From an uncultured Prevotellaceae bacterium (GTDB lineage: Bacteria > Bacteroidota > Bacteroidia > Bacteroidales > Bacteroidaceae), in assembly GCA_900318995.1 (NCBI GenBank), contig ONMR01000002.1:110943-174942 (forward strand): a stretch of DNA of 64,000 bases, written 5' to 3'. A program made the position numbers and the translations under genes. A model generated the notes under the pieces. That model was not told the DNA's origin and did not search any database. It saw nothing but the letters and a program-made list of their open reading frames with translations. Positions 7,951 through 53,782 of the stretch are shown one piece after another (within the stretch, counting starts at the first letter, position 1; the number at the start of each line of letters is the position of its first letter).

Positions 7951-7988
7951 AACAAAAAAGCCTCTCTCACATCTGTGAGAAAGGCTTT
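7951..7988 (-). terminator. attenuator terminator of the leu operon
   Basis: On the minus strand AAGCCTTTCTCAC (7987-7975) pairs with GTGAGAGAGGCTT (7970-7958) around a 4-nt loop, followed by a U-rich tract, 27 nt before the leuA start. The 5' arm can instead pair with a segment at the end of the leader peptide gene (8026-8035), so terminator and antiterminator are mutually exclusive. Confidence 0.85.
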
Positions 7989-8020
7989 TGCATTTATTTT
8001 AACTCTGTCAGATATATGCG

Positions 8021-8086
8021 TCAGGCTTCCTCACACCGGCAGTCCGGAATGATAATGGAAATAATAATGAAGCCCTGCAGTCGCAT
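8021..8086 (-). CDS. leuL: leu operon leader peptide rich in isoleucine codons
   Basis: A 21-codon open frame between the promoter and the terminator. After MRLQG it reads FIIISIIIP, with six Ile codons in eight positions, then ends with a Cys/Arg/Glu-containing tail and TGA. RNA segments fit classical attenuation. GGCTTC (8074-8069) pairs with GAAGCC (8029-8024) when the leader is fully translated. If a ribosome stalls on the Ile codons, TGTGAGGAAG (8035-8026) is free to pair with CTTTCTCACA (7983-7974), the 5' arm of the terminator, over ten pairs including one G-U. Only one Leu codon is present, so charged tRNA-Ile looks like the sensed signal. Confidence 0.85.
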   Translation of the reverse strand: MRLQGFIIISIIIPDCRCEEA

Positions 8087-8118
8087 AAATCTTTCTAGTC
8101 GTTTTCTCTTAAATCGGC

Positions 8119-8151
8119 GCAAAGATAAACACACAAATCAAAACGAACAAC
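8119..8151 (-). promoter_or_regulatory. leu operon promoter, Bacteroidota type
   Basis: On the minus strand GTTG (8151-8148), a 20-nt spacer and TATCTTTGC (8127-8119) match the Bacteroidota consensus TTTG-N19/20-TAnnTTTGY with one mismatch in the -33 box. Transcription would start near 8112, giving a leader of about 26 nt before the leader peptide. Confidence 0.75.
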
Positions 8152-8166
8152 TTATCATCCGATTTT

Positions 8167-8199
8167 TTTGTTTTTCTTGATTACATTATATATCTTTGT
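8167..8199 (+). promoter_or_regulatory. promoter of the hipBA-peptidase-exporter operon
   Basis: TTTG (8167-8170), a 20-nt spacer and TATCTTTGT (8191-8199) match the Bacteroidota consensus perfectly. It is divergent from the leu promoter, with 15 bp between the two -33 boxes, and lies 36 bp before the hipB start. HipB-type regulators commonly repress their own promoter, so operators are expected here; I saw no clear palindrome. Confidence 0.78.
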
Positions 8200-8235
8200 A
8201 ATTGATAATATTTGATTCTTTTACTAATAGATTAA

Positions 8236-8574
8236 ATGGATACAAATAATATATTATCACTTCTTGACGAATATGTTATGGAATCGGCCGATGATATAGC
8301 AATCAAAATGGCACATGATTTCAGGAACAGAAGAATCGAGAAGAACCTGACCCGCGAACAGATCGCAGAGCAGGCACAGGTTGCCGTCAGCAACATAATA
8401 CGCTTTGAGCAGAAGGGTCTTATCTCATTAAAGAATCTGATAGCTATTGCAATGGTTTTGAATTACACATCTGAGATCAAGAGCATATTCCAAACCCCCA
8501 AATATGCAACCATGGAAGAGTTGACACAGATACGTCGCAACACCGGCAAGAAGAAAGCCCATAAAATAGTATGA
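8236..8574 (+). CDS. hipB: HipB-like helix-turn-helix regulator (XRE family)
   Basis: A 112-residue protein with one Cro/C1-type helix-turn-helix at about residues 26-80: RNRRIEKNLTREQIAEQAQVAVSN forms the first helices, followed by IIRFEQKGLISLKNLIAIAMVL. It probably represses the divergent intergenic promoter and acts as antitoxin or partner of the HipA-like kinase 4 nt downstream. It is the first gene of a six-gene, tightly spaced operon. The basic tail GKKKAHKIV is not part of the fold. The HTH assignment is firm; the antitoxin role follows from position and family. Confidence 0.88.
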   Translation: MDTNNILSLLDEYVMESADDIAIKMAHDFRNRRIEKNLTREQIAEQAQVAVSNIIRFEQKGLISLKNLIAIAMVLNYTSEIKSIFQTPKYATMEELTQIRRNTGKKKAHKIV

Positions 8575-8578
8575 CCGC

Positions 8579-9682
8579 ATGGACAGACTCACAGTGAAAT
8601 ACCACGACCGTACAGTGGGAACGCTCTCACTTACCCCCGACAATAAGCTGTGCGCATTTGAATATGACAGCAGCTGGTTGGCCGACGGATTCAGCATTTC
8701 ACCTTTGGAATTGCCTTTGCGTCAGGGATTGTTTATTGCCAAACCGCAACCTTTTGGTGGTAATTTTGGCATTTTTGAGGATAGTCTGCCCGATGGTTAC
8801 GGCCGGTATCTGCTTCATAAGGAGTTGATGCGCCAAGGCATCAATGACTCAAACCTTTCATCTATTGACCGCTTGAGTATGGTTGGAACTAACGGGATGG
8901 GCGCTTTGACCTATCATCCACAGACAAATATCCATCTGGAAAACCAGAACCTTGATTTCGACCTGCTGCAAGCCAAGGCTCTTGAAGTTCTCAAGGAGAA
9001 GCAGGACACTGATGCAGGACTGCTTTTATACAACAGCGGCAACAGTGGCGGCGCTCGCCCCAAAGCAGTTTTCAGCGATGTACACGGTCATTGGCTTGTC
9101 AAGTTCTGTCACACATATGACCCTTTTGACATGGGCCGTCAGGAATATCATTACAACGAAATAGCCCGCAAGTGCGGTATTCAGGTTCCTGATTTCAGGC
9201 TTATAAACGACAAGTATTTTGCTACACGCCGTTTTGACATCGGACCGGACAACCAACGGATCCATACCGCCACCGCCGGCGGACTGTTGTGTGTGTCAAT
9301 GTCAGCACCCATACTTGACTATAACAATCTGCTTGCACTGACCGGGTATCTTACCCAAAACCCGTATGATGTAGAACAGATGTTCAGGCGCATGATATTC
9401 AACTATCTGACACAAAACAAGGATGACCATAGCAAAAACTTCAGTTTCATCATTCAGCGCACAGACAATGGCCAATACCGCTGGCACCTTGCGCCCGCTT
9501 ATGACCTGACTCTATGTGCCGAAGGATACAACGGAGAGCATGCCACCTCGGTGAACGGGACAGGACATCCTGCTCTTGATGATTTCGTAGCAGCAGGAAC
9601 CAAAATCAAGATAAAAAAACAACGTTGTTTGGAAATTTACGATGAGATACACTCATCTTGCGGAGACTTTCTATCCATATGA
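8579..9682 (+). CDS. hipA: HipA-family serine/threonine kinase
   Basis: Members of this family phosphorylate protein targets, in Escherichia coli the glutamyl-tRNA synthetase. The 367-residue protein contains both the small N-terminal domain (residues 1-110) and the kinase core. The ATP-loop NSGGARPK is at 155-162, the catalytic loop NKDDHSKNFSF at 280-290 and the metal-binding APAYDLT at 305-311, so all key residues are present. It is shorter than E. coli HipA (about 440). The stop overlaps the start of the S26-like peptidase gene by 4 nt, tying it to a peptide-processing and export cassette, which is unusual for a plain toxin-antitoxin pair. Confidence 0.9.
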   Translation: MDRLTVKYHDRTVGTLSLTPDNKLCAFEYDSSWLADGFSISPLELPLRQGLFIAKPQPFGGNFGIFEDSLPDGYGRYLLHKELMRQGINDSNLSSIDRLSMVGTNGMGALTYHPQTNIHLENQNLDFDLLQAKALEVLKEKQDTDAGLLLYNSGNSGGARPKAVFSDVHGHWLVKFCHTYDPFDMGRQEYHYNEIARKCGIQVPDFRLINDKYFATRRFDIGPDNQRIHTATAGGLLCVSMSAPILDYNNLLALTGYLTQNPYDVEQMFRRMIFNYLTQNKDDHSKNFSFIIQRTDNGQYRWHLAPAYDLTLCAEGYNGEHATSVNGTGHPALDDFVAAGTKIKIKKQRCLEIYDEIHSSCGDFLSI

Positions 9683-10125
9683 CCGATGAGATTATCATAA
9701 AAGAGGCTGTCCGATTGGTAGCAGACGGAGTAAGCGTAACCTTCCCTGTTAAGGGACGGAGCATGATTCCGTTTATAATAGGCGGACGCGAAAGCGTAAT
9801 CCTGCAACAGCCCACAAATCTCAAGGTCGGACATGTGGTTCTTGCTAAGGTAGGCCCGGAGCGATATGTAGTTCACCGCATAATACGCATCAGTTCCAAT
9901 GGGCGAATTACCCTTATGGGCGATGGAAACATTCGCGGCACGGAGAGCTGCAAAGCAAAGGATGTCCTGGCCCGCGCCACCCATGTGGTTGATTCACAGG
10001 ACAGGCGGCGTCCTTTGGATTCACGTGGACAACTGTTTAAAGCCAGGATATGGTATTTTATCCGCCCTATGCGCCGATATCTGCTTGCCGGTATGCGTTT
10101 ACTCAAACCAAGTATCTATAAATGA
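9679..10125 (+). CDS. S26/S24-like signal peptidase family protein
   Basis: A 148-residue protein; start at ATG 9679 overlaps the hipA stop. The motif VKGRSMIPFI places a candidate nucleophile at Ser28. RYVVHRII places a His at position 66, where bacterial leader peptidases have Lys, so it resembles the Ser-His (ER/archaeal) type. GDGN follows at 81-84. There is no N-terminal membrane anchor; a hydrophobic segment near the C-terminus (YLLAGMRLL) may associate with the membrane. It overlaps the next gene by 4 nt. Because HprK-like, PqqD-like and exporter genes follow, it may cleave a leader peptide. The substrate is unknown. Confidence 0.78.
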   Translation: MTDEIIIKEAVRLVADGVSVTFPVKGRSMIPFIIGGRESVILQQPTNLKVGHVVLAKVGPERYVVHRIIRISSNGRITLMGDGNIRGTESCKAKDVLARATHVVDSQDRRRPLDSRGQLFKARIWYFIRPMRRYLLAGMRLLKPSIYK

Positions 10126-10979
10126 AAGGAACCCGATATTACATAGTAGCTGAGCATACTTTCTGTGTCAAAGCGGCGGATAACAATCTGGCGCTGATGC
10201 AGAACTATGAGCCTTTCAGAACTGCTCCGATTGAGGATCTCCTGTTTGGACTTACCGTGACCGACGGAAGTCCGGTTGACTACATCGAGGAGTGGCGACA
10301 AGATGAGGAGGGACAGGACACCATTTGCGGACATACTGAGCAGGGAGAGCCTGTGTTTGAGTTCCGGTTTGGAGGCAAGACTGCGGGATGGTTGGTTTGT
10401 ACACCCGGTTACAGGGATGCAACACTTCATTTGAGCGGATTCCAGTCCAAAGCCGCGCTTGACAACTCCCTGATGATACAGTTTGCAATGTCATCAGCCT
10501 GTTTGGGAACGGTGCTGTTCCATGCGGCAGTAGTGAGTCTTGAGGGACGCGGATATATGTTCCTTGGCAAGAGTGGTACGGGTAAGAGCACCCATGCAAG
10601 ACTGTGGCTTGAGAACATTCCCGGCACTGAGCTGATGAATGATGACAACCCTGCGGTTCGCGTAAAGCCGGACGGCACGGCTGTGGTCTATGGTACCCCC
10701 TGGAGCGGCAAGACTCCATGTTACCGCAACGTAAGCGCCCCGCTTGGAGGCATTGTGCTTCTGAGTCAGGCACCATACAACAAGATAGTACAACTCAAAG
10801 GCATAGGTGCTTATGCGGCAGTTGTGCCCAGCATATCGGGCAAGCGTTGGGATGAACGCATTGCAGATGGTTTGCACGAGACTGAGAATGCTTTGGCAAG
10901 CAATATACCGGTATGGCATCTGGACTGCCTGCCCGATGCTAATGCCGCTCTGATTTGTAAAGAGACAATAACACAATAG
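10122..10979 (+). CDS. HPr kinase-like P-loop kinase
   Basis: A 285-residue protein with the C-terminal fold of HPr kinase/phosphorylase: the conserved histidine in LFHAAVV near residue 134, Walker A GKSGTGKST at 149-157, NDD at 173-175 and GTPWSGK at 191-197. It lacks the N-terminal domain of true HprK. Related kinases occur in peptide natural product clusters; in some lasso peptide clusters they phosphorylate a precursor serine. The gene overlaps the S26-like gene by 4 nt and lies 3 nt before the PqqD-like gene. A role in phosphorylating a peptide is inferred from family and context; HPr itself is an unlikely substrate in this operon. Confidence 0.82.
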   Translation: MKGTRYYIVAEHTFCVKAADNNLALMQNYEPFRTAPIEDLLFGLTVTDGSPVDYIEEWRQDEEGQDTICGHTEQGEPVFEFRFGGKTAGWLVCTPGYRDATLHLSGFQSKAALDNSLMIQFAMSSACLGTVLFHAAVVSLEGRGYMFLGKSGTGKSTHARLWLENIPGTELMNDDNPAVRVKPDGTAVVYGTPWSGKTPCYRNVSAPLGGIVLLSQAPYNKIVQLKGIGAYAAVVPSISGKRWDERIADGLHETENALASNIPVWHLDCLPDANAALICKETITQ

Positions 10980-10982
10980 GAT

Positions 10983-11252
10983 ATGAAGATAAAGAAAGGA
11001 TATATACTGCGCACAGTCTGCGGTGAGAACGTGATAGTTGGAGAAGGCCTGGATGCAATAAACTTTGGCCGCATGCTCTCTCTGAATGAGACTGCCGCAT
11101 GGCTCTGGAAAAAAGCAATGGAATACGGTGACTTTACAGCCGATAGCCTGGCCGACGCACTTTGTCAGGAGTATGACGTGGATCAGGTGCAGGCACTTAA
11201 TGACGTAAAGGAAACCCTGGACAACTGGACTAAACTGGGAGTGATAGAATGA
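10983..11252 (+). CDS. PqqD-like peptide-binding protein
   Basis: An 89-residue PqqD-family protein, the winged-helix fold known as the RiPP recognition element that binds leader peptides. Typical features are the start KIKKGYILRTVCGENVIVG, the segment MLSLNETAAWLWKKAM (family pattern 'LN.t...iW') and an acidic helix-rich end with FTADSLADALCQEYDVD and VKETLDNWTKLGVIE. It sits between the HprK-like kinase and the exporter genes and overlaps the latter by 4 nt. The natural reading is that it delivers a peptide to the kinase, peptidase or exporter. Confidence 0.85.
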   Translation: MKIKKGYILRTVCGENVIVGEGLDAINFGRMLSLNETAAWLWKKAMEYGDFTADSLADALCQEYDVDQVQALNDVKETLDNWTKLGVIE

Positions 11253-12868
11253 AATACTGGAGTTGGATATGGCGTAACACACAGGGAATCCGCTGGAACA
11301 CGGCGGTCCGCATAGTGGCAGGCACGGCGCAGGTAGTGCTGGGTCTCATGATGGTCTGGCTCAGCCGCCGGTTCATTGATGAGACCATTCATACCGGATC
11401 GGTCCATGACATAACAGTCATGATTATCTGGCTGGTGCTGACCGTAATTGGCGGAGTTCTGCTACGCCAGATATATTTCCTGCTCACCACCAAGGCAAGC
11501 ATACGCCAGACAAATGCCATTCGCCTCAAGATGTTCAGCGGTCTTTTCCGCCGCCAGCTCTATGAGGACAAGGAGATTCACTCCGGTGACATCAGCTCCC
11601 GCCTTACCAAGGATATTGAGGTGGTATCCGAAACCACAACCGAGACCCTGCCACAGATGTGTATTACCTGCATACAGTTGGTAGGTGCATTCCTGCTACT
11701 GCATTATTTTGACCGATGGCTGGCCTGGGCGCTGCTCATATTGACGCCGATGGCCATACTCATGGCCAAGTTCATCGGTCGTAAACTCCGTCAGATGACA
11801 CTCGATATCCGTCAGGACGAGAGCCGCATCCAGATGCAGGTGCAGGAGGGCATGGAGAACAACGCCGTGCTTCGCGCCATGGGCAGCGAGGAGTGGATGA
11901 CCGACCGTCTGGACACCATGCAGCAGCAACTCAAGGGCAATATTATGCGCCGCACCCGCTTTACCATAATGATACGCATCATTCTGGGCAGCGCATTCGG
12001 TTTGGGTTATCTGCTGGCATTCGTATGGGGAGGTTTGCAGTTAAGAAACGGTGCCATCACGTTCGGTATCATGACATCGTTCCTGCAACTGGTAGGCCAG
12101 ATCCAGCATCCCGTAATGCAGCTGCTCAATCTGGTGCCGCAGGTGATACACTCCACCGCCAGCATAGACCGTCTGCATGAACTTGAAACCATTGAAACGG
12201 AGGCCGATGCCTCAACCCTCCACCCCGACCTTCAGGGTATCCGGTTTGATGATGTGAGTTTCAGATACGCCGGCGGAGACCGTCAGATACTCTCCGGCTT
12301 TACGCATGATTTCCGGCCCGGCACCAAGACCGCCATTATGGGTGAGACCGGCATAGGCAAGACCACCCTATTCCGTCTGATGCTGGGATTCATCAGCCCT
12401 GACAGCGGCACCATCAACCTGTATGGGAAAGACGGCAGTACCATACCTGCGGGCGCAGAGACCCGTCCTGACTTTGTGTTCGTACCTCAGGGCAACACCC
12501 TTATGAGCGGCACAATCCGGTTTAACCTTCAAGTTGCCAGACCCGAAGCATCGGATCAGGAACTTCTTGAAGCCCTGCACACAGCCTGCGCCGGTTTTGT
12601 ACAGGAACTCCCTGACGGTCTGGACACCCTGCTGGGCGAGCGCGGCAGCGGCCTTAGCGAAGGCCAGGCCCAAAGAATAGCAATAGCCCGGGGCTTGCTG
12701 CGCCCGGGCTCCATATTGCTGCTTGATGAGATAAGTTCATCTCTCGATCCCGATACAGAGGCCGAGCTCTACCGCCGCCTCTTCAAGGCTTATCCCAGCA
12801 AGACTATGATCTTTATTACTCACCGCACCGCCATCACCACCCTCTGCGACTCGGTGCTCACGCTCTAG
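11249..12868 (+). CDS. ABC exporter half-transporter (permease fused to ATPase)
   Basis: A 539-residue type IV exporter. Residues 1-310 hold six membrane segments and the permease coupling loop. The ATPase follows: Walker A GETGIGKTT at 365-373, signature LSEGQ at 469-473, Walker B ILLLDE at 489-494 and the switch His in ITHR near 525. There is no N-terminal C39 peptidase domain, so leader removal, if any, needs a separate protease; the S26-like protein of the same operon is a candidate. It would act as a homodimer in the inner membrane. Its last 4 nt overlap the 3' end of micro-ORF A on the other strand. Confidence 0.92.
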   Translation: MKYWSWIWRNTQGIRWNTAVRIVAGTAQVVLGLMMVWLSRRFIDETIHTGSVHDITVMIIWLVLTVIGGVLLRQIYFLLTTKASIRQTNAIRLKMFSGLFRRQLYEDKEIHSGDISSRLTKDIEVVSETTTETLPQMCITCIQLVGAFLLLHYFDRWLAWALLILTPMAILMAKFIGRKLRQMTLDIRQDESRIQMQVQEGMENNAVLRAMGSEEWMTDRLDTMQQQLKGNIMRRTRFTIMIRIILGSAFGLGYLLAFVWGGLQLRNGAITFGIMTSFLQLVGQIQHPVMQLLNLVPQVIHSTASIDRLHELETIETEADASTLHPDLQGIRFDDVSFRYAGGDRQILSGFTHDFRPGTKTAIMGETGIGKTTLFRLMLGFISPDSGTINLYGKDGSTIPAGAETRPDFVFVPQGNTLMSGTIRFNLQVARPEASDQELLEALHTACAGFVQELPDGLDTLLGERGSGLSEGQAQRIAIARGLLRPGSILLLDEISSSLDPDTEAELYRRLFKAYPSKTMIFITHRTAITTLCDSVLTL

Positions 12869-12996
12869 CCTAGCTCGCCGCCGAAACCAGGAATCGTGAA
12901 GAAATCCTCATCCTCGCCGCTAACACACAGTATCCTGGTGGGCAGTATATTGATAACCTCTGTCGTGGGTTTGAAATATTCCTTTTTCATAATCAT
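12865..12996 (-). CDS. micro-ORF A, candidate precursor peptide (43 aa)
   Basis: Starts MIMKKEYFKPTTEVINI, continues RILCVSGEDEDFF and ends IPGFGGELG. It is paralogous to micro-ORFs B (24435-24572) and C (53624-53782). The pattern K(K/R).Y..P.TE.I...(R/K)IL.(C/V).SG followed by acidic residues is shared and the C-terminus varies. It lies 13 nt downstream of the 492-residue secreted protein gene, on the same strand, and ends tail to tail with the ABC exporter gene. There is no signal peptide. I recall similar short ORFs beginning 'MKK.YI.P..EV' as common, uncharacterised genes in Bacteroidales. Function unknown; a RiPP-like or phosphopeptide precursor is a hypothesis. Confidence 0.72.
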   Translation of the reverse strand: MIMKKEYFKPTTEVINILPTRILCVSGEDEDFFTIPGFGGELG

Positions 12997-13009: not shown

Positions 13010-14488
13010 TTATCGGATAACAACTTTTTTACCGTTGCCGTTAATATAAATGCCAGGTTCGGTGGGACATTCCTCCAAAGGACGTCCTGTCAGGTCAAAC
13101 CAACGCTCAACATAAACCTCACCTGTCTTCATATCCAAGGTACCTACACCAGTAACTGTACCGTCCCATGCAAGCAGACGTACCAGAATCCTGTCAGGTA
13201 TTTCCTCAGAATCGTCTCTTGAAGGGGCCCGATATGCGGAACCGTCACCCGAATAGGTAAGATATGCACGGAACGGCGGCATGTAAGCACCCGTTCCTGC
13301 CTTGACAAACTGACCTGCTGTAACTGCAGTCACTCCATCTGTAGCCGTGCCACCGCTGGCGGCAAAGCCGAATACCCTGCCCGTAAGTGGAGCAGTACCA
13401 TAGGTAAGGCGCTCATATGTTCCATGGAAAGCCCATGTTCCGCCAGTCACATCACTCTCGCTTAGGCCGGCATCAACTGTAAGGTCATTGGGCACTGTAC
13501 CACCGAATTCAACCGTACCAGTTGCGTTCGGCACATACAGATATGGTTTGCCTGCTTCTGTGGCAGTGAGCATATTTCCGGCAGAGGGTGTGGCGTCAAT
13601 CATAGTTGCAACCCACACATTGCCCTCCTTTGAAATATCACGGAACTCATACACCTTGCCGCCCGGGATGCTCGTCATGGGGAACGGCAGGCATATAGTC
13701 GATGCCTTGCCGCCGGTAAACGAGCGGGTAAACCTCACCTCCTTGCCCTGAATGTCATACACACTGTAGGGAGTGACTCCCGTGCTCTCACTCAAATCAA
13801 GAATCACCGGCTCCATCTTATAGGTTATCTGAATGTTTACGGGATCGGCAGGCATTGTAAAGGTAAACGACGTGGCACTGGTCCTTATAAACTCCGTCTC
13901 AGTATCATACAGACCGTCTACCCTCTCATATACCTTAACGCCATCAATCATATATCCGGCTGATGGTGATGCCGTAACCGTCACCGTCTCACCGGCCATG
14001 GCCCTGTTCTTGTCCGTACTGACGGTACCATTCTCGGCCGATGCCCTTGTAATGTCATATTGGGCTGAACCTGAAAGGTACAACGCTTCTATCTCAACGT
14101 TTCTGGCCGGCATGGTAAAAGTATAATTAATACCCTCGGTAACTTCAACCGGATCATTTTCATGTCCGTCAATATTCCAAATATCCAGACGGTAACTGAA
14201 ACCGGTTGCTCGGGTCCGCAGGATTGTACGTGACGATTGCGCTGCCCACCATTCGGATTCAGAGCACTGGTAATAAACATGAAAACTATTGAATATTGCA
14301 CCTAAAGCAGGATAGATGGTTACCGTAACGACCTCATCGGCACTGTAATTATCCTTTTGGGGCGATACAACCACGGTGCATTTCTGCTGTTCCGCCACAC
14401 TCACGGTGTATGTCTGTGCACCTGCAGGTATGATAAGACAGCAACCCAGAATGATTGCAACAGCCCTTTTCATCTTGTTCTTATTCAT
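13010..14488 (-). CDS. secreted surface protein with Bacteroidales C-terminal module
   Basis: A 492-residue protein with signal peptide (KMKRAVAIILGCCLIIPAGAQ). Residues about 25-230 carry two beta-rich repeats of the InlB/'tunneling' type (VSVAEQQKCTVVVSP and ITRASAENGTVSTDKN, each followed by 'GY/FSYR' and 'FTMPA'). Residues about 255-430 are a module shared with the 399-residue protein: CLPFPMTSIPGGKVYEF, KPYLYVPNATGTVEF, AFHGTY, QFVKAGTGAYMPPFRAYLTYSG. The tail GRPLEECPTEPGIYINGNGKKVVIR resembles a type IX sorting signal. Its ATG overlaps the stop of the giant gene upstream by 8 nt. Probably cell-surface; ligand unknown. Confidence 0.85.
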   Translation of the reverse strand: MNKNKMKRAVAIILGCCLIIPAGAQTYTVSVAEQQKCTVVVSPQKDNYSADEVVTVTIYPALGAIFNSFHVYYQCSESEWWAAQSSRTILRTRATGFSYRLDIWNIDGHENDPVEVTEGINYTFTMPARNVEIEALYLSGSAQYDITRASAENGTVSTDKNRAMAGETVTVTASPSAGYMIDGVKVYERVDGLYDTETEFIRTSATSFTFTMPADPVNIQITYKMEPVILDLSESTGVTPYSVYDIQGKEVRFTRSFTGGKASTICLPFPMTSIPGGKVYEFRDISKEGNVWVATMIDATPSAGNMLTATEAGKPYLYVPNATGTVEFGGTVPNDLTVDAGLSESDVTGGTWAFHGTYERLTYGTAPLTGRVFGFAASGGTATDGVTAVTAGQFVKAGTGAYMPPFRAYLTYSGDGSAYRAPSRDDSEEIPDRILVRLLAWDGTVTGVGTLDMKTGEVYVERWFDLTGRPLEECPTEPGIYINGNGKKVVIR

Positions 14489-17400
14489 TGCTCATAATCT
14501 TTTTACCGTTATGGATATAGATACCGCTCTCCGGTTTGCCCGGCAACTCACGTCCGTAGAGGTCATAGTAACGCTCAGTACCATCTGCGTCAATAGTACG
14601 TATAGTGTCTATGCCGGTAGCGTCACCGTCTGACAAGAACATCGTCAGTCCACGCATAGGTGCACCTGAACCTCCGCTTTGCAGCATGTATGCGCGGAAC
14701 GGAGCGACATAGGCATTGGCATTGTTTGCCGGAATCGGAGTCCAATCACCGTCTGTAAGCAACATGGCACCTATTTGTGCGGCTTCGGTGTTGTCAATGC
14801 GCTCCAAACTGCCACGCATGACATAACCAGGAACATCCCACTGGTTCTGAGCGGCCACAAGTGCTCCAGATGATGCAGGAATGGTTCGGGCATCATTAGC
14901 ATTAAGTGTCAGACTCTTGCCTGTCAACCTTATGACGTATGGCTTTAAGGCTTCAATCGTGTTCCCCTCAACTTGACGGAATGTAATCATATTACCTTCA
15001 CGCTCAGCCGGTTTATAGACTATTGCCTCGCTGGGATCAAGCGCAAGTTCATAGGGCAGGAATGCGGTATATGCCTCACCCTTGCCGATAAGTTTACGCG
15101 TGTTCACCACACTTTGTGCCTCAAACTGATATGGTACGCAGTATTCCTTGTCATCAAGCAGACGGAATGTCTCTGCACTCAATTTGGTGCCGTTGTCAAC
15201 CACCACGTTCACACCCTGCGCCTCGCCATATTCCTGTGGCAGATACACCAGAGTCTTCTGGGTATCAATACCCAGTCTTGCCAAACCATGAGCCTTGATA
15301 TCATCCTCTATCAATGTGCTGTTACACATAAGCATATCCACATAACGCAGATTGGGTGACTGGGAGAATACTCTATCCTCTATGCTATCCAGCACGCCAG
15401 GCAGTGTCACCTTCTCCAACTGTGTCAGTTTCTGCATATCCTGGGCACGGAGCACGTCAATAGCCGTGTAACCCAGTGCCGTGAGGTCACGTACACCGGT
15501 GTGGTTGTCAAACCAGCCTTCCACGCTATATACCTCGGTAAGGTCATCAATCGTGGCAGCTGCATGGGCACCGAATACGGCAAATGACTCGTCGTCCTGG
15601 AAGTCACCTGTAGATATGTTGTTTGTCTTCTGACCGTCTACCGTGTAAACATCATCGCTGATATATTGCTGATAAAGACTGGGGCGAACATAGAAAGCAT
15701 CAAACGTGGGGCTGTAGTTGTTACACATCGCATTCCATAGAGCCAGTCCCGATGAAATACCAACCTTCTGTGTAGCCAGGATATACATGCGCGTGAGCAT
15801 GGCATCATCGTCCAATGCGTTCCAGTTGAAATCTGTCATGTCATCACCAAGCACCAGCGTCTCAAGCCCCTCGCACTCCTGCAGGGCACGTTCCTCTACC
15901 TCAGCGCATGTGCGTGGCAGGATGAGAGTCTTCAGGTTGTAGGCACGCAGGAATGCGTGGTATGGCAGATAGTTGTCACGTACTACCTTGTAAAGTTTGA
16001 AGTTCTCGGCCATATAGAAACTGGTGCTGCTCTTGTAATAACCCGACACGCCCACATCGGTTGCCTTAAGCTGAGCATCATACAGATCTAGGTACTCCAA
16101 CTTGCCGCTGTAGTTTCGGGTATCGGCCCACGGGCAGTAGCCGGAAAGATAGCGCAGCACGTCAAGGTCGCCGCCCGAAATCGGGCCAATGACCTTCAAC
16201 TTGTATATGTGGCTGTAGTCACCCTTCAGGCTGTTCACATAGCTGCCGCCTTGGCCGGTGGCCCATTCTGTAGTCACTGTCAGTCCCAACGCAGCAGCCA
16301 GCGTGTTAGGCTCTGTCACGGTTACTGTGACAATCTCCTCGTCAGCATTAACGGTTTTGTCAGGATTGATATGGTCAGCATACTGTGTCCACCGCTCGCG
16401 GTAAAGCTTGCAGTACTCCTTGGGTACCAGGATCCTGAAGTCGGCGGGCAAATCCCTGAAAGCATCTGCGGCCAGTGTAGGCAGCACAAACTGAGGCTTG
16501 GACTCTGGGCTTCCGGGAGCAGCGTTTTCATCGGCATCAATCACATTCACACTGCTTATGTGGATGGTCTTGAGATTAGTACAGCCGGCAAAGGCATCCA
16601 CGCCTATGCAATCTATTCCTGACGGCAGAGTGATGGTCTCCAGATTGGTCATGCCGCTGAATGCCGATTTCAGTTCCTTCACGTTCTGGAACTGACAGAA
16701 CTCGTCAAAGTCCTTAATGGTAGTGTTGTCCTTGAAGATGTTCTCCACACTTTCCAGCTCCAGATACTCTGATGGGAAGAAGTGGCCCTTGTCGGCCAGC
16801 GCCCACATCACCTCATCCGTAGAGAACGGGCTGGTTATGTCCTGTGCCTGTCGTGTCAAGTTGACATCACCCATATAGTCGCCTAACTGCGACGGCAACG
16901 TATAGACTTGCTGTATGGGAGCCTCCCACGGGTCACTGCTCTCGCTCGTGGCGTGGCTTGCGGTAAGGAATACCAGCTCCTCAATGCCAGTGAGGTCCTG
17001 TAGCAGGTCACGGGTATACTTTGATGTGTTTCGTCCCACGGCGATGCGCTTAAGGCCGTAAGCCTCCTGGAAAGTATTCTCACCAATCTCAGTTACGCTC
17101 TTGGGCAGTATGACGGTCTCTAAGGCGTTGCAGTTGTGGAACATGTATTCGCCCACCCAGTTATCCTTTTCCAGGTACTCATCCACGCCGTAGCCGTTGT
17201 AGCTATTCTCGTCATCCCGGCGCAAATCGGCATCCCAGAGGTTCAGATAACGAAGCTGACCGTCTGTGAACTCGCTCTCCCATGCGTTGGCACCCATCAG
17301 ATGGCGCAACACGGCCACATCCTCACCGTTCAACGGACCAATTACAGTCAGTGAATCGTACTTGGCGTACGGAGCATTTATAAAGCGCAACTTGTCGTCT

Positions 17401-20400
17401 TCTTTCATCAGCGACTGAGTCGCAAAGCCGAGCTTATCGGCCAGCTGCCCGGGCTCAGTGACAGTCACTACCTTGTTGACTTTATAGGTGTCGTCACCAA
17501 CGATGAACTGAGCATATTGACTCCACGCCGTTTTGTATTCATCCACCTTGGCGGCAGGGACGTAAATTTTAAGGAAAGTGTACGGCTGGAACGCATTCGC
17601 ACCTAATTCTGCGGGAGTCTCACTCCTGACCAGGATGGTGTTCATATACGTACCTTTAAAGGCATTCGGGCCGATGTAGGTCACAGAAGCCGGCAGTTCT
17701 ATTTCCTTAAGTGCACAATAACTGAACGCAGCCTCCTCAATGCGCTTGATGGTGGATGGCAGTACGATATTGCCCAGAAAGATACAGTCTGAGAACCATA
17801 AGACACCTACATAATCCAGCCCCACGCTCTCAAAATACTTGAATTCGGCGAACGAGTGAATAGACGTGCCCCTGAGCTTGCCGTCTAACCATGAGAAACC
17901 GGCGCCTGCTATACGGGCCATATCAAGATAGTCATCCCACAGAGCCGGGTCGGTACCCGTATTGGCGGGGTCATAGTAAGCCATATCCTTTAACGCAAAC
18001 TTAAGGAACGGGTCAGTGAAACGCACCACGCAGGGCATGAAACGGTCCTTGTATTCTGCCCAAGATGAGTCGGCCTCAAACCATGCAACCTGCTGGGGCA
18101 TCATCTTGATCCGTGCGGGCGAATCCTTGAACACATCCTTACCAATGCTGATCATCTGCGGTGTCATAGGCTCTATGTGGTTATCACCGTCGGTCACCAT
18201 GTACAGAAGGTCCAGATCGGCCAGGTTGGAACACCCTTGGAATGCACGGTCACCTATATGTACCTGTAGATCCGTGTAGCAATCACCGGTTATGCCTGCT
18301 CCATAAAGGTCTACAAATGATACTGAACGCAGGTTCAGGTTATCCTTGAAAGCCTCGGGCATCACCTCATCCAACTGATAGTTGTTATATACACCTATAT
18401 CGTTGCACAACTTGACGGCACCCTGATGACCGGTAATAAAATCATTGTCCGGACCAGTCACGATAGTGTGCTCAATCAGATGGCCCTGAACCTTGTTCTC
18501 CTTCTTAATGGAGTTCTGCTCATAGGCATAGGCATACTGTGCACCGTATTCGTTGTACTTGGAAGCCGGCTGGGCACTCTGGTAGGTAAAGTATCTCTCA
18601 AGCGGTTTCCATGACTCGTTCTCAAGGTAATCCTCCTTGCGCAATGGGTCAATGACAATATGGAATTTTGTAGAATCCAGTCCTGCAAATATGCTGTCAC
18701 CCGCCAGAATGAAATTCTCGGGGCCGAGTGCGCGGGTTCCGTTACCGTCGGTCTGCAAGAGCGTGCTGAACTCCGTCAGGCCCGTACAGCCCTTGAACGC
18801 TTCATCAGGTATTGTAAACAGGAACGACATACCTGTATTGCTTGACTGGTTGCTTATGTCGTGGAACTTTACCGTTTTAAGGTTCGTCTTGTCCCTGAAT
18901 ACCGATGGCAGGAATGTCATGGTGCGGTTTGACGTGTTGCTGTTGTTGTCGTTGTCAAATCCGGCATAGATGACCGCATCAGTTACATCATTACCCACAC
19001 TCTTGATGTAGGTGTGATATACCAGATTTTTCTGCGGGGTGGTGATGACGTATCCGCCACCCACAAGGCCCACCTGGTGTATGTTTGAAAGGATGTTCTC
19101 CCTCATGCCCTTGTTCATGGCGTCGGCATTGTATGTGCCGCTGCCACCCCAGCACTGTGACGATATCAGGCCGGCGGTGGATGTGGCTACCGCCGCAGGA
19201 TTGACGGCATAGCGCAATGCTTTCAGGCCTTTGAGAGAAAGGTTCATTCTACCTATTAACACTTGCCTGAGTGTTACTGTGCGCCAGGCCTGCTCGGCAG
19301 CCTTGAGCAGGGCTTGCTTTGAAGCCAAAGTGGCGGCGGCATTGGTTACCTGCTGTTCGGCTAATTTCAACATAGCACCATGCACTATGGACAGTTGACC
19401 GGTATTTAAAAGGGCAAGTTTAGTGAGAGGGGCTGTGAGTGTTCCAGTAACTTCATCAACAACTCCCATACTCACCAACTCATTGAAGGTGGCTTGAGTG
19501 ACAAGTTCCTTTACGGAACCCATCAAGCCTTCGTTGACGACATACCGGTTGAGAGTAGTAACTATCTGCAGCTTCTCCATTTGGAGTATGTTTAATCCGG
19601 CTAACGATGTCACTCGGTTCTCGGCAGACTGCACGGCAACCTGCTGGGCGGATACCTCTTGGCCGGCTTTAAAGAACTCGCCCCATGCCTGTGAACTGGC
19701 TGTATTGGCCGATTCCACAAGTCCTTGCTTGGAAACGAAAGTACCTAAGGTATATGCCGCCATCGCCACCTCTATGGCAATGCGCGGTGCCGTCCACCAT
19801 GACACATCCTGACTCACCACCTGGCTGGTCTGCATGATACCGCCCGGCGACGTCATGTAGTCATATGTCAAACCTCCATTTGAGAATTCACCTCTTGCGG
19901 TAGGAGAATAATCCACCGGCTCTATGTAGGCCAAGTATGGCAGCCAGTTGGGATCATCCTTGAAGTCCGGATAGAGTTCAGTTGAAACAAGTATCTTGAA
20001 GCCGTCCGGACGCAGGCTAATCTGCTCTTCTCTCTGCTCATCGGTCATCTCTACCAGATCGTCGACTGTGGCAAGTCCGAATATATTGTCGCCTGGGATA
20101 ACATCCTTGGGGCCAAGGGCCATCCAGCGGTTCTTGCCATCCATCACATAATAGAACAGGCGCAGTTCCTTCAGGTTGGTACACCCCTTGAATGCACCGT
20201 TGGGAATGACCATCTTCAGTTCACTGTAGGAGTTCTCGCTTCGGCCGTTGGTCTGGTAGAACTCAATGTTTTTGACGTGGGTGTTACCCGCTATGGCATT
20301 GCGTCCCAGTTGGATAGTCTTGTAGTTGTAGTATGAGCCCGGATCGTTGTATATCTTCATGGTGCCGCCTTCATCGTCGATGTCATCGTCATCAACTCCG

Positions 20401-23400
20401 ATGATTGCGGCATAATAAACGTTGCAGTCATCCTTAGTGTCAAGCAGTGTGGCGGCGTTGAACTGCTGGTAGTCGGCGTTCCACGAGCGTATCTGCTCCA
20501 TCATCAGGAGCTTGCCCTCATCATCATTCTTCAGATCTTTGGTCTGGTCATTGCTGCGGTACCAATGATACTTCACACCATCCACGGTAAAATCCTCGGT
20601 AGTGGCCTCGTAGATGATGAAACGGTTCTGGTGCTTTTTCCAGATGGAGGATGCAAGATAGGCCTGGTATTGATCGTTCTGTGCACTGATCTTCAAGTTC
20701 GTGCAGCCATTGAAGGCATCATCGGCCACACGGAAGGTCTGCGTTGGGGTCAGCGCCTTCCAGTGGTTGTCGCCCTTTGTGGTGTACTGCATCATCTTCA
20801 GCTCACTGAAGTTGAAGCAGCCCTCAAAAGCACCTTGATCTATGAAGAAGTCAAAGGGTAACAGCGTGTTATAGTTGTTGGCATCCGTGTCCTTGAAGTA
20901 CATCGTCTGCAGGGCGGAACTGTTACGGAACGCATGGGGTGCAATCATGCCCAAGTGCGTATGTGCACGCCAGTCACCCACCAGGTCATTATGTATCTGA
21001 ACGCCGTCGCTGTTGTAGTCGCTCTCCTTGTAGCCTACCACGGCTGTAATCTCCGATGCATTATTGTTGGAATCATAAACCACCATGTTGGCATCGTTAT
21101 CATCACTCTCAAATGTCCAGCCTTTAGCCACACGGTCCTCGTCACTTATATAGAAATGATAATCGCGGCGAGACAGATAGCGGTATGTCACACCCCACAG
21201 CGTGCGCTCCGTTTCGGCCTCAGGAATGGACGATGTATATGGATTCAAACCGGGCTTGTGGCTCAGGTCCTTAAGCTGGTGCAGACCGTTACGTGTCCAC
21301 GGGTCACTTATGAAACAGCCGCTTACTCCGTCCTGCCAGTGGTCAAACGGGATGCTGAGATCAAGTGTAGTGCGTATCCAGCAACCGCTCCTGTAATAAC
21401 CGCGTCCATTGAAAGTCACGTCCGGATCACCTACAAACTCGTATGATACACCATCGGAGGTATACAACTCGTCCACGACGAAGGTACCTTGCTGTGAACC
21501 GTCAAAATTGAAGGTGGTATAGCAATCCTGCAAGGAAAGCTTGCTGTAGTCTGCCATGCGGACAAAATTGTTACCGCTGGTTATAACTTCGGCAAACGAC
21601 AGGTTGCTTGGGTCAAACAGACTCTCACTGATGGTGACGGGCACGTTTGACCAACCCACAAATCCGCCGCAGTTGGTGGTTTGATAGAACCACTTATGTA
21701 GGTTGCCGGTGAATGAGCAGCGCTCAATTAAGAGCCGCTCTGCATTGGAGACCGCACCCACCAGACCGCCGTTTGATGCATCACCGTCAATGGTAGAGAC
21801 AATAGTTACGGACGAGTGGCAGTCGTTCAGGCTCGTAACACCCGAACTTCCTATCACCTGCGATATAATGCCGCCCGAATACTGCGCGCAGGAGTATATC
21901 TTGCCGGTGGTGTGCAGATGGCGGAAGGTCGCTCCACTAACTGCCATGAAAGGAGCTATGACAGTTGAGTATGGCTGGAACTGCGTGCCTGAGTTGAAAA
22001 TCAGCGTGTGACCGTCGCCGTCAAACGTGCCGCTGAAACGATTGGCCAGATTACCCACGCTCATACCAACGCAGTCTATGTCCTGCGTCATGCGGAACAC
22101 CTTGCCTGCGTAGCTGTTGCCGCCCAATACATCCACGGCCAGTTTCACCCATTCGGTTGTGTTGCGGATGAGGAAAGGATCGGCCTCGGTGCCGGTGCCG
22201 ACAAAGGGTTGATCGCTGGTGATGGTAGCAGTGACCAAAACAGACGAGTTAACCATATTTCCCGGCAACTCCAGGTTATATTTGTTGGTTTGACCAACCC
22301 GATAGAACGAACTCCCATCAACACCCACGGCGGCATTGATAATCCGGAGGCCGTCAGGTACGTTCAGATAGAAGCCGTAGGTACCGCCCGTAGTCGCACA
22401 AATGATATCATCAATTAAAAGGATGGAACCAAAACTGTCGGCTGTGAGGTGACTGGTGGTATAGACAACCGAATCCGGATTGTTAACGGAGATGGTCATG
22501 CCCGGCGTTCCGCTGCTGAGCGTAATCAGACGGCTGCCCACGACGCCGGAGGGACCGTAAGTGTTTTTAGCCATACCGCAAGTGACGGTGCCGGTCTGGT
22601 CGTAGATGAGGTCGGATTTACATCCGTTGCCCCCGACGCTGAGAGTTTGGGAGTAACTATAAGCCAGACAGTCGTACAATTTGATATTATTGGCACTAGT
22701 GCACCAGCCGATGAGGTAGCCTATGTAGGTCAGGTTGCTGCCCGTAATCTTTCCGTCAAAGAGGCAGCCGCGCAGCGTGGTTTTGGATGAAGAAGCGTGA
22801 CCCACAAAACCGCCTGCATGAGTTCCTGTACATGAAATGGTGGCCGATACACGGCAGTTCTCTATCAGGTTCTGGTTGTCATTGCCAGGTATGCCTCCCA
22901 CGAGTCCAGAGGTGTGCAAACCACCGCTGATTTCACCATCAACATGCAGGTTGCGGATGGTGCCGCCGTCAATCTTGTAGAATAGACTGGTGTAGTCACC
23001 ACCGCTAAGATGAGCTGTGACGGTATGGCCACCGCCGTCCAGAATGCCCCTGAAGCAGGGATATGTGTCACTGCCCACCCGGACATAAACGTCAATGTCA
23101 TCGGTCAAAAGGAAAAACTTTCCTGCATAGTCATTGCCGCTACCTACCCGCATGGCAAACAACTGCCAGCAGCTGGCATCGACTAACAGGTAGGGAGACT
23201 CCTCAGTTCCGTTGCCCGTCCACTCCTTTCCAAGCGCCAGACGGACATCGCCGGCCGGCATCTCAAACGTATAATAGCTGGAGTTGAGGCTTTCCAGGAC
23301 CACGTCTGTGGACAGTACAGTAAAGTAGCCGTCAGGAATAGTCGACGAGAAACACACCCTCTCGCCATTGCCGGCATAATAGGTGCCATCAAGAGTCAGT

Positions 23401-24302: not shown

Positions 24303-24323
24303 GACTAGTCCTTTTTTATTATT

Positions 24324-24356
24324 ACAAATATGTAAAGATATGAACAAAGTAACAAA
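24324..24356 (-). promoter_or_regulatory. promoter of the 3,273-residue protein gene
   Basis: On the minus strand TTTG (24356-24353), a 20-nt spacer and CATATTTGT (24332-24324) fit the Bacteroidota consensus with one mismatch. It lies between the terminator of the upstream unit and the GTG start at 24302, which supports separate transcription. Confidence 0.5.
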
Positions 24357-24374
24357 CTCGCTCATAAACATGGC

Positions 24375-24416
24375 AAAAAAAATTCTCCTGGCTCCAGTTC
24401 TGGAAGCCAGGAGAAT
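24375..24416 (-). terminator. Rho-independent terminator after micro-ORF B
   Basis: On the minus strand ATTCTCCTGGCT (24416-24405) pairs with AGCCAGGAGAAT (24393-24382) and runs into seven to eight T residues. It closes the unit ending with micro-ORF B, 19 nt after its stop. Confidence 0.85.
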
Positions 24417-24434
24417 AAAAGTGTGCAATTAGGT

Positions 24435-24572
24435 TTAGAGAAATTCTCCACCCCAATCCGGGATCTCGAACAGATCCTCAATATCATCCTCACCGCTAAA
24501 GCAAAGAATCTTGGTGGGTTGTATTTTGATAACCTCTGTCGTGGGTCTGATATATTCCTTTTTCATAATCAT
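24435..24572 (-). CDS. micro-ORF B, candidate precursor peptide (45 aa)
   Basis: Starts MIMKKEYIRPTTEVIKI, continues KILCFSGEDDIEDLF and ends IPDWGGEFL. It is the closest paralogue of micro-ORF A; the upstream flank (24549-24613 versus 12971-13037) is nearly identical at nucleotide level. It lies 13 nt after the 399-residue protein gene and just before a strong terminator, so it is the last gene of that unit. Start codon choice among the two ATGs (24572, 24566) is uncertain. No function is known; conserved leader-like half, conserved Ser-Gly-acidic motif and variable end suggest a processed peptide. Confidence 0.72.
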   Translation of the reverse strand: MIMKKEYIRPTTEVIKIQPTKILCFSGEDDIEDLFEIPDWGGEFL

Positions 24573-24585
24573 CTCAGTTTAAAGG

Positions 24586-25785
24586 TTATCGGATAACAAC
24601 TTTCTTACCGTTGCTGTTAATGTATATACCAGGTTCGGTTGGAACGCCTTCCAGAGGACGGCCACTCAAATCAAACCAACGCTCCATTACAGCTTCACCT
24701 GTCGTCATATCAAGTGAACCGACACCTGTCACAGCACCGGACTTGCTTACAAGCTTAACCGTAATGCGATTGGGAATGCCCGATGTGCCGGCACCTCCCC
24801 TTGCGGGGGCCTGCAGTGCATTCTTGCTGCCAGAGTAAGTCAGGTATGCGCGGAAAGCAGGCATATATGCACCTGTTCCGGCCTTGACAAACTGGCCGGC
24901 TATCACCTCGGTCTTACCGTCTATTGATGTACCGTTTGTGGCTGCAAAACCGAACACAGTACCCGTAAACGGATCCGTGCCGTATGTAAGTTTAGTGTAC
25001 GTTCCATGATATGTCCAGTCTCCGCTGGTCGTAATACCTGCAGTAATGGTTGCCGGAACATCCGATACGATGCCATCAAAAACTACTGAGCCCGTTGCAT
25101 CAGGCAAAAACAGATATGGCTTGTTGGCATCGGTTGTAAACACCTGATTACCATCGGGAGTGGCATCACTCATGGTTGCCACCCACCCTTCGGTAGGATC
25201 ACATTCCACGTTCACAAACTCATAAACCTTACCACCCTGAACGCTAGTCATAGCAAACGGAAGGCAGATGGTCGACGCCAAGCCAGCGGTAAACGAACGC
25301 TCAAAGCTTACATTTCCTGCCGCAGTCAGGTTGGTCACACCGGTAGACTCTGTAAGGATAATTGTCCTTTCAGAATCATCCAGAATCAGTTCATAGGGAC
25401 TAAGCGGAGATCCGATTTTGCCGTTATACTTGTATTTCTGGCCATAATCTTTCTCATATGTGAATCCGGTAGATTTATCAAATACCTTGAAATAGAGTTT
25501 CTCTCCTTTCTTGTTTCCATAAACCGTCAGGTAAGTCACACCGGGCTTCTGAGGATTGCTTGGACTGGCCTTTCCCCTTAACTCATTGCCGCTATAGACT
25601 GCAACGACAACATTCTGAAGTGCCTCACTACCCTTTTTAACTTTCACCGTCACGCTCATATTACCATAATAGGCATATGGATTGACTTTGGGGAAAGGAT
25701 CGGAATTATCAGCCCAGAGGCCGGCACTCCAGTTAAGGAGCGCCAGCACACTGACCAATATTTTATTTAAGGCTTTAAACTTCAT
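24586..25785 (-). CDS. secreted surface protein with Bacteroidales C-terminal module
   Basis: A 399-residue protein. The signal peptide (ALNKILVSVLALLNWSAGLWA) is followed by a beta-sandwich-like domain of about 115 residues (YYGNMSVTVKVKKGSEALQN to YEKDYGQKYKYNGKIGSPLSPYELIL). Then comes the module shared with the 492-residue protein (CLPFAMTSVQGGKVYEF, KPYLFLPDATGSVVF, YHGTYTKLTYGTDPFTG, AGQFVKAGTGAYMPAFRAYLTYSG) and the tail GRPLEGVPTEPGIYINSNGKKVVIR. It starts 4 nt after the 3,243-residue protein gene and is followed by micro-ORF B, so these genes appear co-transcribed. Cell-surface role likely; ligand unknown. Confidence 0.85.
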   Translation of the reverse strand: MKFKALNKILVSVLALLNWSAGLWADNSDPFPKVNPYAYYGNMSVTVKVKKGSEALQNVVVAVYSGNELRGKASPSNPQKPGVTYLTVYGNKKGEKLYFKVFDKSTGFTYEKDYGQKYKYNGKIGSPLSPYELILDDSERTIILTESTGVTNLTAAGNVSFERSFTAGLASTICLPFAMTSVQGGKVYEFVNVECDPTEGWVATMSDATPDGNQVFTTDANKPYLFLPDATGSVVFDGIVSDVPATITAGITTSGDWTYHGTYTKLTYGTDPFTGTVFGFAATNGTSIDGKTEVIAGQFVKAGTGAYMPAFRAYLTYSGSKNALQAPARGGAGTSGIPNRITVKLVSKSGAVTGVGSLDMTTGEAVMERWFDLSGRPLEGVPTEPGIYINSNGKKVVIR

Positions 25786-53623: not shown

Positions 53624-53782
53624 TCAAGCAAGCTTATCTACATCGGCCGGATTCCTCCCCGGTGCATAGCCCCAGTAGTCATCTTCTAAGCCGCTCATCA
53701 CAAGTATTCTGCCGCTCATTTTAAAGTCAATAGCCTCAGTAATAGGCTTCATGTATCTTCTCTTTTCCATAGTCATTATCAT
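53624..53782 (-). CDS. micro-ORF C, candidate precursor peptide (up to 52 aa)
   Basis: Contains MEKRRYMKPITEAIDF, GRILVMSGLEDDYWG and the tail YAPGRNPADVDKLA. Three in-frame ATGs (53782, 53776, 53770) precede it. It shares the pattern Y..P.TE.I ... (R/K)IL..SG plus acidic residues with micro-ORFs A and B, but the Cys of the 'ILC' position is replaced by Val and the C-terminus is unrelated. It begins 8 nt after the 1,212-residue secreted protein gene and is followed by a terminator, repeating the arrangement of A and B. Function unknown. Confidence 0.65.
   Translation of the reverse strand: MIMTMEKRRYMKPITEAIDFKMSGRILVMSGLEDDYWGYAPGRNPADVDKLA

Follow-up and report, generated by a model that had tools for sequence, protein, structure and literature searches.

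The window analyzed here is a stretch of 64,000 nucleotides (nt) from an uncultured Prevotellaceae bacterium whose genome is 87% complete. At 8236-12868 it carries a row of six genes on the forward strand, in which a hipBA pair is followed by genes for an S26-type peptidase, an HprK-like kinase, a PqqD-type protein and an ABC exporter. The last four genes recur together in relatives, and small precursor-like peptides are encoded near them and elsewhere, directly behind genes for surface proteins with a common C-terminal domain (CTD). The pairing of these peptides with proteins resembling cargo of the type IX secretion system (T9SS) is the new and most interesting result of the analysis.

Organization of the locus

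The row opens with genes for a hipB-like helix-turn-helix (HTH) antitoxin or regulator (8236-8574, 112 aa) and a hipA-like kinase (8579-9682, 367 aa). They are followed by genes for a soluble S26/S24-type serine peptidase (9679-10125, 148 aa), a P-loop kinase of the HprK/PEPCK fold (10122-10979, 285 aa), a PqqD-type recognition element (RRE) for ribosomally synthesized and post-translationally modified peptides (RiPPs; 10983-11252, 89 aa) and an ABC exporter half-transporter (11249-12868, 539 aa). All six open reading frames (ORFs) of the original prediction are open on the forward strand, and its junction spacings are recovered in a different order, which from hipB onward reads +4, -4, -4, +3 and -4 nt. 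The promoter expected in front of hipB is also present, as a -33/-7 pair, TTTG-N20-TATCTTTG, at 8167-8198 with the -7 box at 8191-8198; it was called by a motif scan with what we take to be the Bacteroidota consensus. A sigma-70 scan performed no better than chance (12 found versus 10.0 expected), and no palindromic operator of at least 8 nt with at most one mismatch lies within 8117-8236.

The peptidase and the kinase are recognized by conserved residues and fold. The former gives a Peptidase_S24 match of 19.4 bits, under the Pfam cut-off of 23.3, and has Ser28, His66 and Asp82 invariant across 37 aligned sequences. Its AlphaFold model (mean pLDDT 86.5) matched LexA domains in Foldseek, three of them at E ≤ 0.001, and type-I signal peptidase more weakly (E about 0.01). 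These features support a predicted S24/S26-fold peptidase with a catalytic Ser and His/Asp partners. The HprK-like protein reaches family models below threshold only (Hpr_kinase_C, 16.4 bits; ScmC, 25.1 bits); its motifs GxSGTGKSTH, NDD and PWSGKT do not vary among 35 aligned sequences. All 50 PDB matches listed for its AlphaFold model (pLDDT 95) are PEPCK (best E 3.8e-7, TM about 0.5), an enzyme that shares its fold with HprK kinase. Searches of both proteins against PDB sequences with phmmer gave no matches.

The remaining two products were assigned by Pfam and NCBIfam scans. The PqqD-type protein matches PF05402 at 55.7 bits, and the NCBIfam lasso PqqD models at 24.9 and 18.2 bits, under their cut-offs of 70 and 80. 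The ABC protein has ABC_membrane and ABC_tran matches, and no peptidase domain was matched in it by either scan. A defense system was considered and rejected, as PADLOC gave only ATPase-type matches for the ABC protein (best mad3, 3e-20); its matches for the HipA and HipB proteins were weak.

Distribution of the operon

Gene neighborhoods were compared in 20 fetched loci of the genus and in the best 80 of at least 582 named relatives (the named loci), of which 43 hold 9 kb on both sides of HprK and 37 hold less. Presence was counted in 37 genomes of the genus and 251 of the family. The HprK-like gene is found in 31 of the 37 and 206 of the 251, the latter covering 25 of 30 genera. The usual order in the genus is HprK-S26-PqqD without hipBA (18/20 loci), and in 16 of the 18 an ABC gene was detected behind these three. 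HprK, S26 and PqqD occur together in 19 of the 20 genus loci and ABC joins them in 17; one locus (L046) has HprK alone. The fetched stretch includes leuA in 11 of the 20.

Within 9 kb of HprK, the 80 named loci hold S26 in 71 cases, PqqD in 72 and ABC in 62. An NTP_transf_5-like nucleotidyltransferase gene (PF14907, to which both queries belong) lies within the same distance in 26. No PF14907 gene was found in the genome that holds the window, so a nucleotidyltransferase step would not be general. The named relatives are mostly Prevotella/Segatella and other Bacteroidales, chiefly metagenome-assembled genomes (MAGs) from ruminants and other herbivores. In L230, from Prevotella ruminicola KHT3, PqqD, S26 and ABC stand next to HprK. 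Thirteen of the 80 records are titled Fibrobacter, with 50-58% identity to HprK, and mis-binning of single MAGs is possible among them. Gene content and conservation point to S26, HprK, PqqD and ABC as a real unit.

Precursor-like peptides

Three genes for precursor-like peptides, overlooked in the original prediction, lie in the window on the reverse strand. Peptide 1 (12865-12990, 41 aa), which has a YxxP leader, is convergent with the ABC gene. It was found, like peptide 2 (24435-24566, 43 aa), by its start pattern and a profile; peptide 3 (53624-53770, 48 aa), which ends in -LA, was found by profile match (E 0.002). Next to ABC, the window and relatives alike have short ORFs starting MKKxYxKP, and a profile made from eight such peptides found five more loci as well as the third window copy. 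The window has two occurrences of the start pattern (0.01 expected) and the whole genome four. Judged by hand and with the window included, a peptide lies within about 1.6 kb of ABC in 12 of the 16 genus loci with a window-like ABC; none lies near it in L040, L041 and L043, and L037 is cut by the contig end.

For the named loci, the peptide hidden Markov model (HMM) drew only on peptides of the window, the genus and the family, and matches above E 0.5 (neighbor listing) or 0.05 (distance count) were left out. In the 75 named loci outside the genus, 285 kb scanned at up to 2 kb from HprK gave 18 peptides and 925 kb scanned at 2-10 kb gave 12, an enrichment near HprK of about fivefold. Thirteen of these loci have peptides no more than 2.5 kb upstream of HprK, 18 in total, and every one of them shares the HprK strand.

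The architecture was described from 64 distinct peptides, for which Y/FxxP was required for entry. They are about 34-59 aa long, and the motif is YxxP in 62 and FxxP in two. A hydrophobic pair followed by Ser is present in all 64, with the Ser 16-17 residues after the Pro in 57; 62 have an acidic tail, and one has a Sec-like hydrophobic stretch. The peptides end in -LA in 16 cases, compared with 25 of 3413 background ORFs, and some of the rows that built the model also end in -LA. This end is often D-x-x-LA, in Prevotella-type and in Fibrobacter peptides. A signal-peptidase -3/-1 rule at the peptide Ser was tried and rejected by eye because position -3 varies in Fibrobacter. Leader codons pooled from ten sequences give a ratio of nonsynonymous to synonymous differences per site (pN/pS) of 0.43. 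A ribosomal precursor with a conserved leader and a variable core, encoded near an RRE gene, is one mark of a RiPP pathway, and this combination is found, with the peptide within 2.5 kb upstream of HprK, in 13 of the 75 named loci. The original prediction of a compact peptide modification and export system gains support from these YxxP peptides and from gene sets conserved in many species.

Pairing of peptides with surface proteins

On the reverse strand, convergent with the exporter gene, 12865-35521 holds two tandem triads, each consisting of a giant surface protein, a CTD protein and a YxxP peptide. The first comprises a BspA-type leucine-rich repeat (LRR) surface protein (14481-24428; 3315 aa as listed, from an uncertain TTG start) with a CTD-like end (E 2.9e-10) and a secreted protein of 492 aa (13010-14488), whose short-CTD-like C-terminus is encoded at about 13013-13192 and whose gene ends 19 nt before peptide 1. 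The second comprises a laminin-G-type surface protein of 3243 aa (25790-35521), its C-terminus related by eye only, and a secreted protein of 399 aa (24586-25785) with a short-CTD-like C-terminus, 19 nt before peptide 2. Peptide 3 follows, after about 20 nt, a BspA-LRR/List_Bact_rpt surface protein of 1212 aa (53791-57429, reverse strand), also with a short-CTD-like C-terminus. All three window peptides start about 20 nt after a secreted-protein gene with the common C-terminal domain.

The arrangement extends to other genomes. Among the 30 peptides of the named loci, 27 lie behind an ORF. Counted once each, these ORFs number 22, and all of them carry the CTD by an HMM made from 11 rows (eight from named loci, three from the window), of which 14 of the 22 ORFs are independent. 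Conversely, a peptide lies within 400 nt after 22 of 26 CTD ORFs, and in Fibrobacter records two or three peptides may follow one CTD ORF. Across the 37 genomes of the genus, where the best 70 CTD rows were compared with the listed peptide rows, a peptide comes next after 32 of the 40 CTDs that reach E ≤ 1e-15, where chance would give about 1.5e-4 per CTD; of the 32 peptides at E ≤ 1e-8, 29 have a CTD ahead of them. Three of the 40 strong CTDs are the window's own, and many pairs are orthologous and not independent. A strict regular expression for the domain was found in 16 of 34 cases (background 26/850) and in 15 of 30. These figures are low because variants such as GTYYHNGK and GMYIHNG were missed, and the HMM was therefore used instead.

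The domain consensus contains T-G-V/I, W-Y/F-x-L-x-G, P-x-x-x-G-x-Y-x and NGKK-x-x-I-K/R. Short T9SS CTDs of Prevotella intermedia are described as 43-55 aa long with cleavage at PT/GI and motifs B, D and E (PMC11969387). By eye, motifs B, D and E are present at the cargo C-termini. By hand count, the proteins at 13010-14488 and 24586-25785 have 46 residues from the T/GV site to the end; the cargo at 53791-57429 has no clear T/G(I,V) site. None of the Pfam and NCBIfam T9SS CTD models matched the cargo by sequence. The T9SS translocon protein SprA is encoded in the same genome (SprA_N, 643 bits). The cargo C-termini appear to resemble short T9SS CTDs. Outside this domain, the partner proteins that were scanned have BspA-type LRRs, List_Bact/InlB-type repeats, GLUG (sub-threshold) or laminin-G, or no match.

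The recurrent partner bears on whether the peptides could instead be narrow-spectrum bacteriocins or signaling peptides, antimicrobial or pheromone-like once processed, whose CTD neighbors would serve as adhesins, immunity factors or receptors. Such a pathway would fit the conserved leader with its variable tails, the several paralogues found in one genome (up to 12 peptide matches in G014) and the joint presence of an RRE, a protease and an exporter. Typical bacteriocins, however, are cationic, unlike these short and acidic tails. No immunity-like gene was noticed, in inspection that included no search aimed at one, and the partner that recurs, a T9SS-like surface protein, varies widely in its N-terminal content. 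We consider a bacteriocin or signaling role unlikely.

Proposed pathway

The reading that we favor, and consider probable, is that the operon is a cyclase-less, lasso-like RiPP-type maturation and export system serving T9SS-cargo-linked peptides. PqqD would bind the YxxP leader of the small peptides encoded near the operon and elsewhere in the genome, and the HprK-like kinase would phosphorylate the peptide. The nucleotidyltransferase, where present (in some relatives and not in the window), may attach another group. The modification may be phosphorylation alone, as the original prediction suggested; a nucleotidyltransferase gene near HprK in 26 of the 80 named loci and a C-terminal Ser in only 1 of the 64 peptides make this less than certain. 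Leader removal would fall to the soluble Ser-His-Asp S26-type peptidase, probably near the conserved site of a hydrophobic pair, two residues and Ser, and the ABC protein would export the acidic product. Since the peptide genes directly follow genes for short-CTD cargo, the exported peptide most likely works with the CTD surface protein outside the cell.

Several observations weigh against this proposal. HprK and S26 were assigned through motif and fold and not by family cut-offs. C-terminal Ser, the substrate feature of known lasso kinases, is found in 1 of the 64 peptides. The two near-identical window peptides show no sign of constraint (pS 0.09, pN 0.11). At looser cut-offs the pairing drops to 46 of 70 CTDs and 42 of 75 peptides. 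Two peptides (in L176 and L233) lie within 2.5 kb downstream of HprK on the opposite strand, and in 61 of the 75 named loci outside the genus the 2 kb on either side of HprK hold no peptide. Co-occurrence is weak at the level of genus genomes: peptides at E ≤ 0.01 are present in 26 of 31 genomes with HprK and in three of six without it, which is perhaps due in part to incomplete genomes. G168, one of some genomes of its kind, has 16 MKKxYxxP starts and no HprK match, and five genomes (G011, G015, G016, G017 and G020) have HprK and no peptide. In G011, HprK also stands alone; this single case fits a link between peptides and operon.

The weak co-occurrence and the loci without a peptide near HprK, together with the many peptide copies far from the operon, could mean that operon and peptide-CTD pair are often neighbors yet work separately, the operon acting, for example, on a surface glycan or another protein. 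ORFs that by eye are flippase-like and glycosyltransferase-like are interspersed in the cluster of L077 and L078. Against a separation stand the enrichment of peptides near HprK and the uniform strand of the upstream ones. The YxxP motif of the peptides is also the one that a PqqD-type reader would be expected to bind, and peptides with no Sec-like stretch depend on an exporter. On balance two unconnected systems seem improbable, slightly more so than a bacteriocin or signaling pathway.

Origin of hipBA at the head of the operon

Matches to HTH_3 (30.7 bits) in HipB and to HipA_C (143.8 bits) and Couple_hipA (65.6 bits) in HipA identify the first two genes in Pfam. An HTH gene adjacent to a HipA kinase gene with the motifs NKDDHSKN and YDL, which we take to be the catalytic ones, is the arrangement of a HipBA pair. 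A block at 8190-9667 on the forward strand, including its own -7 box, has 76.8% DNA identity over 1480 columns to a stand-alone hipBA on contig 27 of G036. The homology begins at 8190, just ahead of the -7 box, and stops at 9667, 15 nt inside the end of hipA, so the -7 part of the promoter falls inside the hipBA block. The nearest HipA beyond the window genome and G009 is 81% identical; it is in G036, with its hipB, at an unrelated locus. On the other side, the leu part of the intergenic region is common to relatives up to 8087-8116.

Among the 20 genus loci, hipBA heads the cluster in one (L031, from G009). In the 80 named loci, hipA lies near HprK in one, which is the G009 contig again (L031 and L158 are one contig). 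The gene order in L031 is S26-HprK, altered as in the window from the usual HprK-S26. No hipBA was seen in 20 loci of other genera, where ORFs within 5.5 kb of HprK were inspected. Constant membership of hipBA in the peptide operon is thus found neither in the genus nor in the named loci. Nine of 14 hipBA-less loci have a -7-like box about 9-31 nt ahead of the assumed HprK start; the full strict -33/-7 pair is found in none of the 14.

Since the matching block starts at the -7 box, a hipBA cassette appears to have moved, together with that box, ahead of a resident operon. We read hipBA as a toxin-antitoxin module of recent insertion, which in this lineage has come to stand first in the gene row and, judging from synteny, is no part of the peptide pathway; functional coupling is without support in the present data. 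The original prediction had HipB regulating the pathway and HipA taking part in it or protecting it. In this lineage the tight overlaps do suggest that hipBA and the operon are transcribed together, and the arrangement is common to two genomes. However, 19 of the 20 genus loci and 79 of the 80 named loci lack hipBA, and the pair exists as a stand-alone cassette elsewhere. On the grounds of synteny and of the homologue in G036, HipBA as regulator or effector was rejected, and this role is very unlikely. The co-occurrence proposed for all six genes was borne out for S26, HprK, PqqD and ABC and failed for hipBA; of the two signs of an accidental linkage that the prediction itself had named, occurrence mostly without hipBA is observed, the other being a separate promoter in transcript data, and the linkage is best read as a recent accident. 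The locus would then show a toxin-antitoxin module taking the lead position of a resident operon.

The stand-alone homologue in G036 is part of a stretch (L268, 7526-11011 on contig 27) in which two hipBA pairs lie back to back, apparently a small toxin-antitoxin island. Beside leuA, 165 bp (7952-8116 in the window; 7648-7812 in L044) match G029 at 100% identity despite the different operons, and G009 matches a longer stretch there at 97.6%. This identity is a possible sign of recent recombination at the edge of the hipBA insertion.

The same region encodes, upstream of leuA on the reverse strand, an Ile-rich leader peptide, MRLQGFIIISIIIPDCRCEEA (8086-8021), followed by a terminator-like hairpin (7989-7956) with the longest stem of the hairpin scan. 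Leader peptide and hairpin probably form a transcription attenuator of the leu operon. The attenuator-like DNA (7956-8086) is common to relatives.

Comparison with known systems

The closest parallels are lasso peptide clusters. The motif through which lasso RREs are reported to recognize their leaders is likewise YxxP (PMC12710340). The lasso literature also describes kinases that act on the C-terminal Ser of the precursor, and precedents for a kinase and for a nucleotidyltransferase. Paeninodin/pseudomycoidin-type clusters (K, N, B1, D) share with the present operon a YxxP leader, a discrete PqqD, an HPr-kinase homologue, an ABC exporter and sometimes the nucleotidyltransferase; here, in contrast, the protease is of S26 type, the precursors do not end in Ser, and they are paired with T9SS-like cargo genes. 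The PqqD-type protein and the YxxP leader thus correspond to the discrete RRE (B1) and the leader of a lasso cluster. The identity as a lasso cluster was rejected because the genome yielded no B2 leader peptidase and the cluster has no cyclase: PF13471 (Transglut_core3) has no match in the genome at its stated completeness, and PF00733, for the Asn-synthetase-like cyclase expected beside the precursor, matches only on contigs 40, 14 and 9 (a 571-aa frame and two weaker ones) and not on contig 24, which holds the window. A genuine lasso cluster with a distant cyclase, for which YxxP leader, PqqD, HprK-like kinase, nucleotidyltransferase and ABC gene would all be familiar parts, is therefore the least credible of the alternatives.

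HPr-rel-A (TIGR04352/TIGR04353) and the SynChlorMet protein ScmC (TIGR04249) likewise combine an HprK-related kinase with a PqqD-family chaperone. The matches here are far under the curated cut-offs (15.7/200, 19/35 and 25.1/125 bits), and no radical SAM gene was seen by eye beside the cluster. The short-CTD T9SS cargo of P. intermedia appears by eye to share the C-terminal motifs Y/F-D-L-x-G-R and GxYI and a basic motif with the cargo described here, whose companion peptides have no counterpart mentioned in the available text of that report (PMC11969387). Bacteroidales clusters with peptidase-containing transporters (PCATs) and GG leaders also export leader peptides through an ABC protein; as far as the accessible text describes them, the peptidase belongs to the transporter (PMC10352776), whereas a separate S26-type protease is present here. 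The HTH gene and HipA kinase gene resemble any HipBA toxin-antitoxin pair, which at this locus is a passenger. Searches of open-access literature, with most subscription papers and all bioRxiv preprints outside their scope, returned no paper for PqqD with HprK and none for type IX secretion with PqqD. In the literature searched, the parts of the operon were found joined only in lasso clusters.

Variants of the locus

Two kinds of variation were noted among relatives. In six loci of other genera (L075, L083, L086, L088, L089 and L090), a secreted protein of 142-167 aa with a motif like YMFGFSASFTDSIV recurs by eye and adjoins or lies near HprK or S26; that of L088 has no Pfam family over the cut-off. 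Three Prevotella loci (L202, L210 and L235) have two neighboring HprK-like stretches or an extra weak PqqD, and Cys-rich peptide cores, the peptide of L202 ending in CASCPTDCGSDVCLFYDPDCTYN. They are perhaps a variant with a different chemistry.

Possible implications for surface display

The maturation and export system proposed above may be dedicated to type IX secretion, with cargo-specific RiPP-like peptides becoming partners or anchors of their cargo at the cell surface. We hold this extension tentatively, as a real possibility rather than the expectation. In its boldest form, which is chemically thinkable, the trimmed peptide would provide the amine for joining of the cargo by a PorU-type sortase. 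It would replace the sugars that serve as linkers, which the accessible parts of the sources give as an N-seryl sugar in Porphyromonas (PMC13086638) and as N-alanyl sugars in P. intermedia (PMC11969387). The recurrent C-terminal -LA would then be part of the peptide attachment.

The HprK-like gene of the operon is widespread in one gut family, and the gene set is also present in rumen Fibrobacter MAGs. If the proposal is true, these bacteria would possess a new cyclase-free, kinase-bearing class of RiPP-like peptides, which would tie RiPP chemistry to T9SS surface display.

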